Shown here one piece after another: positions 29,138 to 33,104 of a stretch of DNA of 33,530 nt. Each line of letters starts with the position of its first letter. The first letter of the stretch is position 1. The notes under the pieces are model-generated. The model saw only the letters and a list, made by a program, of their open reading frames with translations. It searched no databases and was not told where the DNA came from. Both the position numbers and the translations under genes were made by a program. This stretch comes from Halorubrum coriense DSM 10284 (lineage in GTDB: Archaea > Halobacteriota > Halobacteria > Halobacteriales > Haloferacaceae). The stretch spans positions 43,213-76,742 of the forward strand of contig NZ_AOJL01000008.1 in NCBI RefSeq assembly GCF_000337035.1, given 5' to 3'.

Positions 29138-30694
29138 TCAGTCGTCGGCGACGGCGCTCGGGTCGGCGTCCGCCGCGTCCGCCTCGGCGGCCAGCAGGCG
29201 GTCGAGCCCGTCGACCATCCCGACGACGCTCGCGCGGGTGATGTCCGCGTCCGACGCCGAGACGCTCACGGAGCGGTCGCCCCGGCAGAGGTCGACCTCG
29301 ACGGTGACGACCGCGTCGGTGCCGCCCGTGATCGCGTCGACGTGGTAGGAGTCGAGGTCGAAGGCGACGCCCTCGCCGCGATCGCCGTCGTCGTCGCCCG
29401 CGAGCGCCGTCCGGACCGCCTCCAGCCCGGCGTCGACCGGACCGGAACCCGTGCCCGAGGCGACCCGCTCGTCGTCGCCGACGCGGAGCCGCACGGAGGC
29501 GGTCGGGAGGTTCCCTCCGGAGGTCGCCGAGAGGTCGACGAGCGCCACGTGTCGCTCGCGCTCGCGCCCGCGGACGTCGTCCGCGACGGCCAGCAGGTCG
29601 GCGTCGGTGACCCGCTTCCCGCGCTCGCCGAGCTCTTTCACGCGGGCGACGACCTCGCGCAGCTCGTCGTCGGCGACCGCCACGTCGTGCTCCGCGAGCG
29701 CGGCCTTCACCCCGGCGCGCCCGGCGTGCTTCCCGAGGACGAGCCGGCGCTCCCGCCCGACCGTCTCCGGCGGGTACGGCTCGTACATCGTCCCGTCCTT
29801 CAGCGTCCCGTCTGTGTGGATCCCGGACTCGTGGGCGAAGGCGTTGGCCCCGCAGACGGCCTTGTTCGGCGGGAGCGCGACCCCGGTGGCCTCCGAGACG
29901 GTTCGGCAGAGCCGGTAGAGCCGCGAGAGCTCGACGGTGTCGACGTCGTACGACCGCCCGAGCGCAATGGCGACCTCTTCGAGCGCGACGTTGCCCGCGC
30001 GCTCGCCGACGCCGAGGACGGTCCCGTGGACGGTGTCGGCTCCCGCCTTCAGGCCAGCGTGGACGTTCGTCAGCCCGAACCCGAGGTCGTCGTGGGTGTG
30101 GAGGCTCGTCGGGCCGAGGTCGGCCAGCCGCGAGACGACCGCGGCGGTGCGCTCGGGGTCGGCCGCGCCGACCGTGTCGCAGTAGCAGATCCGGTCCGCG
30201 CCGGCGTCGAGCCCGGCACCGAGCAGGCGTTCGAGGTAGTCGACGTCGGCCCGCGAGCCGTCCTCGCCGAGCACCTCGACCCACAGGCCGTGGTCTTTCG
30301 CGTACTCGACGAGCTCGACGGTCGTCTCGACGACCTCGTCGCGGGTCGACCCCACCTTCGTCTCGACGTGCTTGTCGGAGGCGGGGACGACGAGGTTCAC
30401 CCCGTCGACGCCGCAGTCGAGCGCGTGGTCCACGTCGGCTCGCACCCCGCGGGCGAAGCTCGTCACCGTCGCGTCGAGCCCCTCGTCGGCGACGCGCCGG
30501 ATCGCCTCGCGCTCGCCGTCCGAGGTACACGCCGAGCCGGCCTCGATCAGGTGGACGCCGGCGGCGTCGAGCTCGCGGGCGACATCGACCTTCTCGCCGG
30601 GAGTCATGGAGACGCCCGGCATCTGTTCGCCGTCGCGCAGGGTGGTGTCGAGTAGCTGTGCCTCGTCGAGGTCGGTGAGTGGTGTTCGGGTCAA
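29138..30694 (-). CDS. 2-isopropylmalate synthase / (R)-citramalate synthase family
   Basis: 518 residues. The catalytic TIM barrel opens with LLDTTLRDGEQMPG, metal-binding HTH (H199 and H201, LHTHDDLG) and NTVHGTV-type loops, and includes HESGIHTDGT and LVLGKHAGRAG. The C-terminal regulatory domain is present (FDLDSYHVDAITGG, VTVEVDLCRG). It condenses acetyl-CoA with 2-oxoisovalerate (leucine) or pyruvate (isoleucine via citramalate); the choice cannot be read by eye. The start is taken as TTG at 30694: the frame is open further upstream to a stop at about 30840 but offers no ATG or GTG. A long leader is therefore likely. A close LeuA-type homologue elsewhere in such genomes is usual. Confidence 0.88.
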   Translation of the reverse strand: MTRTPLTDLDEAQLLDTTLRDGEQMPGVSMTPGEKVDVARELDAAGVHLIEAGSACTSDGEREAIRRVADEGLDATVTSFARGVRADVDHALDCGVDGVNLVVPASDKHVETKVGSTRDEVVETTVELVEYAKDHGLWVEVLGEDGSRADVDYLERLLGAGLDAGADRICYCDTVGAADPERTAAVVSRLADLGPTSLHTHDDLGFGLTNVHAGLKAGADTVHGTVLGVGERAGNVALEEVAIALGRSYDVDTVELSRLYRLCRTVSEATGVALPPNKAVCGANAFAHESGIHTDGTLKDGTMYEPYPPETVGRERRLVLGKHAGRAGVKAALAEHDVAVADDELREVVARVKELGERGKRVTDADLLAVADDVRGRERERHVALVDLSATSGGNLPTASVRLRVGDDERVASGTGSGPVDAGLEAVRTALAGDDDGDRGEGVAFDLDSYHVDAITGGTDAVVTVEVDLCRGDRSVSVSASDADITRASVVGMVDGLDRLLAAEADAADADPSAVADD

Positions 30695-30974: not shown

Positions 30975-31678
30975 TCACCCCAGAAGCGACCGGATCGACC
31001 GCCGCCGCGTGCCGCACTCCCCGCGGTAGTCGCAGGGCGCACACCGGTCGTCGTCCACGCGCGGCGGCAGGCCGTCGATCGACCGCGCCGCGCGGAGCGC
31101 CCGGCGGTACGCGGCCTTCTTCTGGGTCGTCAGCCGGACCTCGCGGACGACGCCGACCGCGGGGTACTCGATGAGGGCGCGCTTGACCGCCCGCTTGTGC
31201 TCCCAAGCCAGCGCTTCGCGATCCCGACCGCGCGGACCGCCTGTGGCTCACACACGCCGCTCTTCGGCGGCTCGCCCGACGAGACGAGCGTCGGGACCGG
31301 CGGTAGCCCGTGCTCCGGACCGTCGGCGTCGCCGCACGCGCTCCCGCCCGCTCCTCCCGGTTCCAGCACCTTGTGGACGGTTCCGTGGTAGTCCTTCCCC
31401 GAGAGGAACCCCCGCTCAGCCGCGGAGTTGAGGAGGCGCTCGTACGGGTCGCGTTCACGCAGGCGATCCATGTAACGGTAGGCGGCCGGCGGCCGGTGAA
31501 GGGGAAGCCGCTGGAGCGTCCGATCGGGCGCGTCGACCAGCTCGTCGTTCCGGAACGCGAGGTTGATCCGCTCGCGCGCCGCTGGCGGGACGTTTCGCTC
31601 GTCGTCGCGTCAGACGTAGTAGAGCTGTCGGGGGCAGTACGCCGCGCGGGCCAAGTCGTTGAACGGAACAAGCGTCAC
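30975..31678 (-). pseudogene. Broken Cas4-like (DUF83/RecB-type) nuclease gene
   Basis: Read from GTG at 31678 the protein begins MTLVPFNDLARAAYCPRQ and continues LYYV, then meets TGA at codon 23 (31610-31612), where CGA (Arg) would be expected. The frame then continues clean (RDDERNVPPAARERINLAF ... GEPPKSGVCEPQAVRAV) to about 31214, where one base is missing; shifting frame restores ALAWEHKRAVKRALIEYPA and VVREVRLTTQKKAAYRRAL to the stop at 30975. The single N-terminal Cys (C15) and the C-terminal CAPCDYRGEC are the four iron-sulfur cysteines of Cas4. Total length would be about 234 residues. A TATA box with ideal spacing is present. No cas genes or CRISPR are nearby; related stand-alone genes occur in haloarchaea. 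Confidence 0.8.
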
Positions 31679-31700
31679 ACGAGGGGTGGCCGCGGCTTCG

Positions 31701-31710
31701 GGTATAAAAC
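31701..31710 (-). promoter_or_regulatory. TATA box of the Cas4-like pseudogene
   Basis: On the minus strand this reads GTTTTATACC, centred about 28 bases before the GTG at 31678. The promoter is intact although the reading frame is not. Confidence 0.55.
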
Positions 31711-31738
31711 GGCGTCCGCGGTCGATCTGCGAACTTCC

Positions 31739-32434
31739 TTACAGCGACACGTCCGTCTCGATGTCCTCGGTCGCCTCGCGGAGGCCGTCCTCGCGCGCGT
31801 CGCTCGCGAGCGACCCCTCGATGTCGGCGTCGGTAAGGAGGTCGCGGAACGCGTCGCGGAAGCGGTCGTTCGCCCGTGTGGAGGCGACGTCGGTGCGCGC
31901 GACGGCGGCGTACCGGGCGACCGCGTCCGGCGCGGTGTCCAGCGCCTCGGCGCACTCGACGATCGAGTTGCCCGCGGCGGTGAGTCGCTTCAGGTCGGCG
32001 TACGCGAACGGCGACTCGCCGCCGTCGTCGCCGCCGACCTCGTCCGCGTCGACCTCGCGGTCCGACTCGCGGACGAGGTGGAGGTCGAGGCGTGCCTTCC
32101 GGACCGTCTCGGCGTCGATATCGGCGGGATCGATTTCGTCGCTTTGCGCGTCCGCACTCTCCTCAAGCGCGTCTCGGATCGCGGCCGAGATTGTCGCGTC
32201 GTCCGCGCCGTCGAACCGGCCGCGGGCGACCAGCGCGTAGACGGCGTCGTCGAGCGGCGTCGAGAAGCCGTACCGGTCGCGCATCGCGGTGACGAGGTCA
32301 CGAACCGCGTCGTCGACCGCCTCGTCGTCGCGGTCGACAAGGGTCCCGCGGTCCGCGTCCTGCCGCTCGGTGACCGTCTCCGATCCGGTGGCGTCGACGA
32401 ACAGATCGCGGAGTTCGGCGGTTTTTCGATCCAT
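31739..32434 (-). CDS. Conditioned medium-induced protein 4 (Cmi4)-like
   Basis: 231 residues, very acidic and soluble, starting MDRKTAELRDLFVDATGSET and VTERQDADRGTL. I recognise this as the haloarchaeal family annotated conditioned medium-induced protein 4, named for induction by spent medium; its molecular role is unknown. Two alpha-helical parts (about residues 35-80 and 150-205: FAYADLKRLTAAGNSI, AEALDTAPDAVARYA) look like helix-turn-helix or helical-bundle segments, joined by an acidic linker. The ATG at 32434 is preferred; the longer frame crosses the promoter. A CTTTTCTACC TATA-like element lies about 27 bases upstream. Confidence 0.8.
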   Translation of the reverse strand: MDRKTAELRDLFVDATGSETVTERQDADRGTLVDRDDEAVDDAVRDLVTAMRDRYGFSTPLDDAVYALVARGRFDGADDATISAAIRDALEESADAQSDEIDPADIDAETVRKARLDLHLVRESDREVDADEVGGDDGGESPFAYADLKRLTAAGNSIVECAEALDTAPDAVARYAAVARTDVASTRANDRFRDAFRDLLTDADIEGSLASDAREDGLREATEDIETDVSL

Positions 32435-32525: not shown

Positions 32526-32654
32526 TGAAAACCACGTAACAGCACGCTACGAGCGCACCCGAGTGAAGCAGCGTAGCATAGCGTCTGCGAGCAGCGGTAC
32601 TAGTAGATCACTTGGACAGTAATATGATTGTCTGCGTGACGGCATACAACTGGC

Positions 32655-32686
32655 TTGACCTCCTCCCCCGCGTGAACGCGGAGGAA
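32655..32686 (-). mobile_element. Probable end of an IS200/IS605 (IS1341-type) element
   Basis: On the minus strand this reads GATTCCTCCGCG then TTCACGCGGGGGAGGAGG and ends TCAA, the hairpin-plus-tetranucleotide form seen at right ends of IS200/IS605-family elements. The stem is CCGCG (32668-32672) with CGCGG (32677-32681) around a TGAA loop. No tnpB or tnpA coding sequence is recognisable beside it, so this is a relic. In intact elements this region is also the 3' end of the guide RNA scaffold, with the flanking DNA serving as guide. Confidence 0.5.
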
Positions 32687-33050
32687 TCTGCCTGCTAGCC
32701 CTGTTAGCACGTCTGTGATGACCGCTATCTCTGTGAGCTGCTCGGTGTTGTCCACCTACGTCTTCATGTTCGCGACGACGCCAGCGACGAACTGTCTGAG
32801 TCCATCACGGTGATGCCCGGCTACATCGACAAGCGCAGCATGCGCTGCTCAATCTATAACCATCTGATATTGAAATGGGAATTTGAATTCAGTGTTGAAA
32901 TCACTACCATCATCTCTGTGTATCTGTCCAATTCACTGGCGCTGGACAGTCTCATTTAAACGTTCTATGTTGAGGCAAGCGTCAGCGTTGGGGTCTGAAG
33001 CATCTCTAAAGCAACCGAAGTCGAGCTCGCTGAATCGGTTACATGCTCTT

Positions 33051-33072
33051 GTTAATATTGATTATAATTAAC
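33051..33072. promoter_or_regulatory. AT-rich inverted repeat upstream of the permease gene
   Basis: GTTAAT (33051-33056) and ATTAAC (33067-33072) are perfect reverse complements around a 10-base AT-only-but-one centre. It lies about 26 bases upstream of the TATA box at 33098, where an archaeal activator would bind. Short arms in AT-rich DNA could also arise by chance. Confidence 0.3.
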
Positions 33073-33097
33073 CGAGATTATCTTGTGTGAAAACGAA

Positions 33098-33104
33098 TTT
33101 ATAC
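33098..33104 (+). promoter_or_regulatory. TATA box of the TauE/SafE-family gene
   Basis: TTTATAC is centred about 34 bases before the ATG at 33135, giving a leader of only a few bases. Confidence 0.6.

Follow-up and report, generated by a model that had tools for sequence, protein, structure and literature searches.

A lineage-specific Cas4-like pseudogene in Halorubrum coriense from a haloarchaeal core family that is probably nuclease-dead

A broken, stand-alone Cas4-like gene lies on the minus strand of Halorubrum coriense DSM 10284, at 30975-31678 of the 33,530-nucleotide stretch analysed here (the window). We consider it very probably a real, lineage-specific pseudogene of a haloarchaeal gene that is near-universal, vertically inherited and CRISPR-independent, and whose family has probably lost nuclease activity. 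The pseudogene is ordinary in itself; the unusual part is the family behind it.

The pseudogene runs from a GTG start at 31678 to a stop codon at 30975-30977 and is homologous over its full length to intact relatives (L001-L030; 59-78% identity). Both lesions named in a preliminary description of this DNA were recovered. The first is a premature TGA in frame with the GTG start, at codon 23 (31610-31612, minus strand; the plus strand reads TCA), where CGA had been expected and where all aligned intact congeners carry an arginine codon. The second, described as a missing base near 31214, is a one-base deletion on the minus strand placed between 31213 and 31214; the reading frame extends from 31678 to about 31214 and then switches to the other frame until the stop codon. 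All four iron-sulfur cysteines are encoded, as had been noted, but they are divided over the two frames: the first, C15 of the YCPR motif, at 31634-31636, and the three C-terminal ones in the second frame within a CxxCxxxxxC motif at 31014-31043 (codons 31041-31043, 31032-31034 and 31014-31016, all minus strand). Together, the two lesions preclude a product with all four cysteines, as translation from the ATG at 31471, past the TGA, would omit C15 and the frameshift would cost the other three. The promoter had been called intact, and this agrees with a TATA box (TTTTATA on the minus strand, 31703-31709) 25-31 bases upstream of the GTG, whose TTTATA core is positionally conserved in the majority of the nine relatives examined.

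The preliminary description left a choice between recent inactivation and sequence error in an otherwise well-preserved gene. That state of preservation does not hold. Besides the two lesions, the window copy departs at 10 positions from a state shared by all of 27 intact Halorubrum relatives, one of these departures being the deletion of a whole codon; among those 27 sequences the next highest count is 5 and the median 1. Several of the changes affect positions that hardly vary elsewhere in the order (Y44, P86, W140). The tip dN/dS of the window copy, estimated from pairwise tip distances with the broken codons masked, is 0.57 (bootstrap 0.33-0.96) as against 0.07-0.33 in 14 relatives; the pooled value of the relatives is 0.14-0.25, and none of 500 bootstrap replicates fell at or below the pooled value. 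The flanking genes evolve normally in the same lineage, with a tip dN/dS of 0.15 for leuA and 0.32 for the upstream neighbour. The excess of non-synonymous change and the raised dN/dS make sequence error insufficient as a cause and point to real relaxed selection. An undamaged gene in the organism, with both lesions arising as sequencing or assembly artefacts, is improbable: the frame-disrupting lesions number only two and the genome is a draft of 69 contigs, but two errors explain neither the deleted codon nor the surplus of non-synonymous change, and both adjacent genes are intact. Either lesion singly could still be an error superimposed on real decay. Inactivation therefore stands, while 'recent' has to be tempered: selection appears to have been relaxed for a considerable share of the lineage's history after it diverged from its closest sampled relative (L083), and with omega set at about 0.2 for constrained and 1 for unconstrained evolution, we infer that about four tenths of that time was unconstrained.

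The loss had also been tentatively linked to a mobile-element relic 1 kb away. A 38-base element end is indeed present about 1 kb upstream, at 32649-32688, and recurs at five other genomic sites and on haloarchaeal plasmids; for the remainder of the AT-richer stretch 32600-33100, neither the genome nor plasmids yielded a match. An insertion nearby is nonetheless a most improbable trigger of the loss, because a complete gene (31739-32434) and an undamaged promoter stand between the relic and the lesions, and because a nonsense change and the loss of one base are not the scars that an insertion leaves. The suggested link thus found no support.

The intervening gene, on the minus strand, encodes a conserved haloarchaeal protein of 231 aa that often adjoins the Cas4-like gene across families; leuA adjoins it within the genus. 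Only sub-threshold HTH-like matches were obtained for the 231-aa protein in Pfam and NCBIfam. The annotation 'conditioned medium-induced protein' was considered for it, but a literature search gave this name no support. Downstream lies an intact gene for a LeuA-type acyltransferase with HMGL-like and LeuA_dimer domains (29138-30694, minus strand), preceded by its cis-regulatory leader, the leuA-Halobacteria RNA motif RF03001 (30773-30825, minus strand; 73.4 bits). The gap between the 231-aa neighbour and the Cas4-like gene is 60 bases in the window (31679-31738) and about 370 bases in clade relatives (L079:4623-5000, L083:4632-5000), in which it holds a palindromic repeat element with the core CCCCTTTGAGTCCC. 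This core occurs in 19 copies in the window genome, compared with 0 for the reversed control.

The preliminary description had proposed that the locus be compared in close relatives. A single-copy orthologue without internal stop is present in 32 of 34 congeneric genomes, the copy in G002 being cut by a contig end, and the window gene is therefore not a chance open reading frame. The two exceptions are uninformative about absence. In G034 the contig ends 303 bases past the neighbour gene; G010 is 84% complete, and its neighbour gene is followed by pyrE-like and tRNA-like sequence in a different gene order. Beyond the genus, a family profile built from 23 sequences matches all 145 sampled Halobacteriales genomes (49 genera), and a search of plasmid and phage records gave no match. 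Because matches are near-universal, plasmid and phage matches are lacking and the gene neighbours are conserved, the Cas4-like gene is a vertically inherited chromosomal core gene rather than cargo.

Loss has occurred repeatedly within this distribution. The copies in G163 and G080 have in-frame stops plus changed residues in conserved motifs (L192, L194), and that in G081 (L187) is interrupted by a stop where the second cysteine of CxxC should be; these are independent pseudogenes in three further species. In G038 an insertion of 33 kb divides the gene into two pieces (G038:C25:257340-257801 and 291186-291386; L048 about 5459 and L196 about 3193) that keep the same strand and order. Close to one of its ends lies a tyrosine recombinase gene of the phage-integrase family, and close to the other a gene for a type I restriction subunit together with a YgjP-like gene. 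A congener of this genome, G108, lacks the N-terminal part of the gene at the same point, and in the near-complete genome G084, where the orthologue appears to be absent, the sole match is a different Cas4-like gene. Stops were also listed for G138, G157, G099, G155 and G178; these fall beyond the aligned portion and do not count as lesions. The pseudogene at the window locus is thus ordinary and lineage-specific, one case among several in which the gene decayed independently, and such repeated independent loss suggests a gene that is useful on average and dispensable in some lineages.

Alignment of the corrected translation with DUF83/Cas4 had been suggested as a check on the family call. The read-through protein, with X inserted at both lesions, scored 19.8 bits against PF01930 (cut-off 22.7) and 24.6 bits against TIGR00372 (cut-off 65), so that its own matches are weak and below the cut-offs, and the call rests on the relatives and the fold. 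At E<=0.1, PF01930 was matched by 22 of the 23 family members and TIGR00372 by all 23; the Halorubrum member tested fell under both curated cut-offs, its match being confined to the C-terminal third. A search of PDB sequences with the family profile gave nothing credible, and matches came from fold comparison alone. An AlphaFold model of an intact orthologue, computed from a 47-sequence alignment, has a mean pLDDT of 90.5 and is closest to the Cas4 chain 7mi4 (Z 16.5, 173 aligned residues, rmsd 3.2). The top four matches are all Cas4 (7mi4, 7mi5, 8d3l and 8d3q, Z 16.5-12.7; the 8d3l Cas4 chain at 14.9) and are followed by AdnA, Dna2, Sso0001 and Exo5. The cysteines C15, C210, C213 and C219 are invariant in the 47 members and in the 23-member set. 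On the strength of the modelled structure, the family belongs firmly in the Cas4 fold. The label 'Cas4-like nuclease' given earlier is accordingly right as to the Cas4/DUF83 fold and the four-cysteine iron-sulfur module, while its second half is doubtful, since the catalytic residues are absent family-wide.

In a profile alignment referenced to haloarchaeal Cas4 proteins that retain D and ExK, the positions of D, E and K of PD-(D/E)XK are occupied by H103, L128 and S130. Position 103 is H in 38 of 47 members and D in 4; position 128, the E of ExK, is hydrophobic in all 47 (L/V/I/M/F), and position 130, the K, is S, F or T in all 47. The divergent members L045, L047 and L066 retain D103 and K130 and have a hydrophobic residue already in place of the E, a pattern which suggests that the catalytic residues were lost stepwise. 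Besides the cysteines, K104, G132, P134, P135 and E168 are invariant. Judged from these residues, the intact family is a probable nuclease-dead solo-Cas4.

Doubt arises from the D at position 103 in 4 of 47 members and from the invariance of K104. PD-(D/E)XK enzymes can relocate their active-site residues, lysines included, and the family might still be an active nuclease with a rearranged site, for instance K104 with E168 or D97, in which case the window lineage would have lost a DNA-processing nuclease. We regard this as unlikely. The invariance of E168 as well as K104, the mostly acidic position 97 in the main clade, the retention of D103 and K130 in the three divergent members and the precedent for relocation would all fit such a site. 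However, D97 is not kept more broadly (18 of 23 acidic in the A2 set) and is placed by the model in the hairpin turn that joins strands 88-94 and 98-106, every member has a hydrophobic residue for the E of ExK, and in Sso0001 the D99A change at the corresponding Asp is by itself enough to abolish cleavage (PMC3466216). A nuclease-dead family would be contrary to the view of a 2017 survey, which describes the catalytic motifs of Cas4 as conserved and considers every Cas4 protein probably active (PMC5704561), a survey that may not have included this family. Among the papers searched, none describes this haloarchaeal variant. A second haloarchaeal Cas4-like family (L170-L174, L202) keeps the canonical D and ERK together with the four cysteines. 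Judged by motif, some haloarchaeal genomes hold a putatively dead Cas4 homologue beside a putatively live one.

The probably nuclease-dead family resembles solo-Cas4 (Sso0001, Pcal_0546; COG1468/PF01930/TIGR00372) in its Cas4 fold, the YCPR cysteine, the CxxCxxxxxC motif, the stand-alone gene and vertical inheritance. It differs in that D, E and K of the PD-(D/E)XK/RecB motif are replaced in the haloarchaeal main clade, the tested Halorubrum member scores under the PF01930 cut-off, and the window copy is broken. With the CAS-Cas4 proteins of type I adaptation modules (7mi4, 8d3l; haloarchaeal L159-L169) it shares the four-cysteine module, and these provide its best structural matches. In contrast to them, the window gene does not stand beside cas1/cas2, being flanked by leuA and the conserved hypothetical gene, and the canonical haloarchaeal members keep D and ExK whereas the window family does not. 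The window genome was searched for Cas1 and for further Cas4 genes, and neither gave a match, so the gene had no role in CRISPR adaptation there.

The intact protein would have a fold of the Cas4/AddB type, held together by an iron-sulfur cluster on four cysteines, with the PD-(D/E)XK residues replaced. Instead of cutting, it most likely binds DNA ends or ssDNA, or serves as a scaffolding or specificity component within a complex for repair or recombination. RecC, a nuclease-dead RecB-like fold within a helicase-nuclease complex, is used for DNA recognition, and a dead PD-(D/E)XK fold of this type is the model that we propose for the haloarchaeal family; unlike RecC, the family has no helicase partner identified. 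A further precedent for a Cas4 fold without catalysis, in a DNA-packaging role, is the nucleocapsid protein of Thermoproteus tenax virus 1, an inactivated Cas4 derivative according to the passage of PMC5704561 that cites it. That derivative is viral, whereas the haloarchaeal gene is cellular, near-universal and chromosomal, and keeps its cysteines.

On balance we favour, with less assurance than the pseudogene itself, a CRISPR-independent haloarchaeal core Cas4 whose nuclease site was lost stepwise (the glutamate, then the aspartate and lysine), whose iron-sulfur module stayed invariant, which took a structural or DNA-recognition role, and which has repeatedly been lost in single lineages. The function lost in the window lineage was probably that of a DNA-handling helper, not a cutter. 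Annotation as a Cas4 nuclease is likely for this gene, which is matched in every one of the 145 haloarchaeal genomes, although its DNA-cutting residues are missing. The natural knockouts, in the window species and others, suggest that the gene is not strictly essential, and the family offers a tractable, naturally catalysis-free system for the non-cutting functions of the iron-sulfur Cas4 fold.
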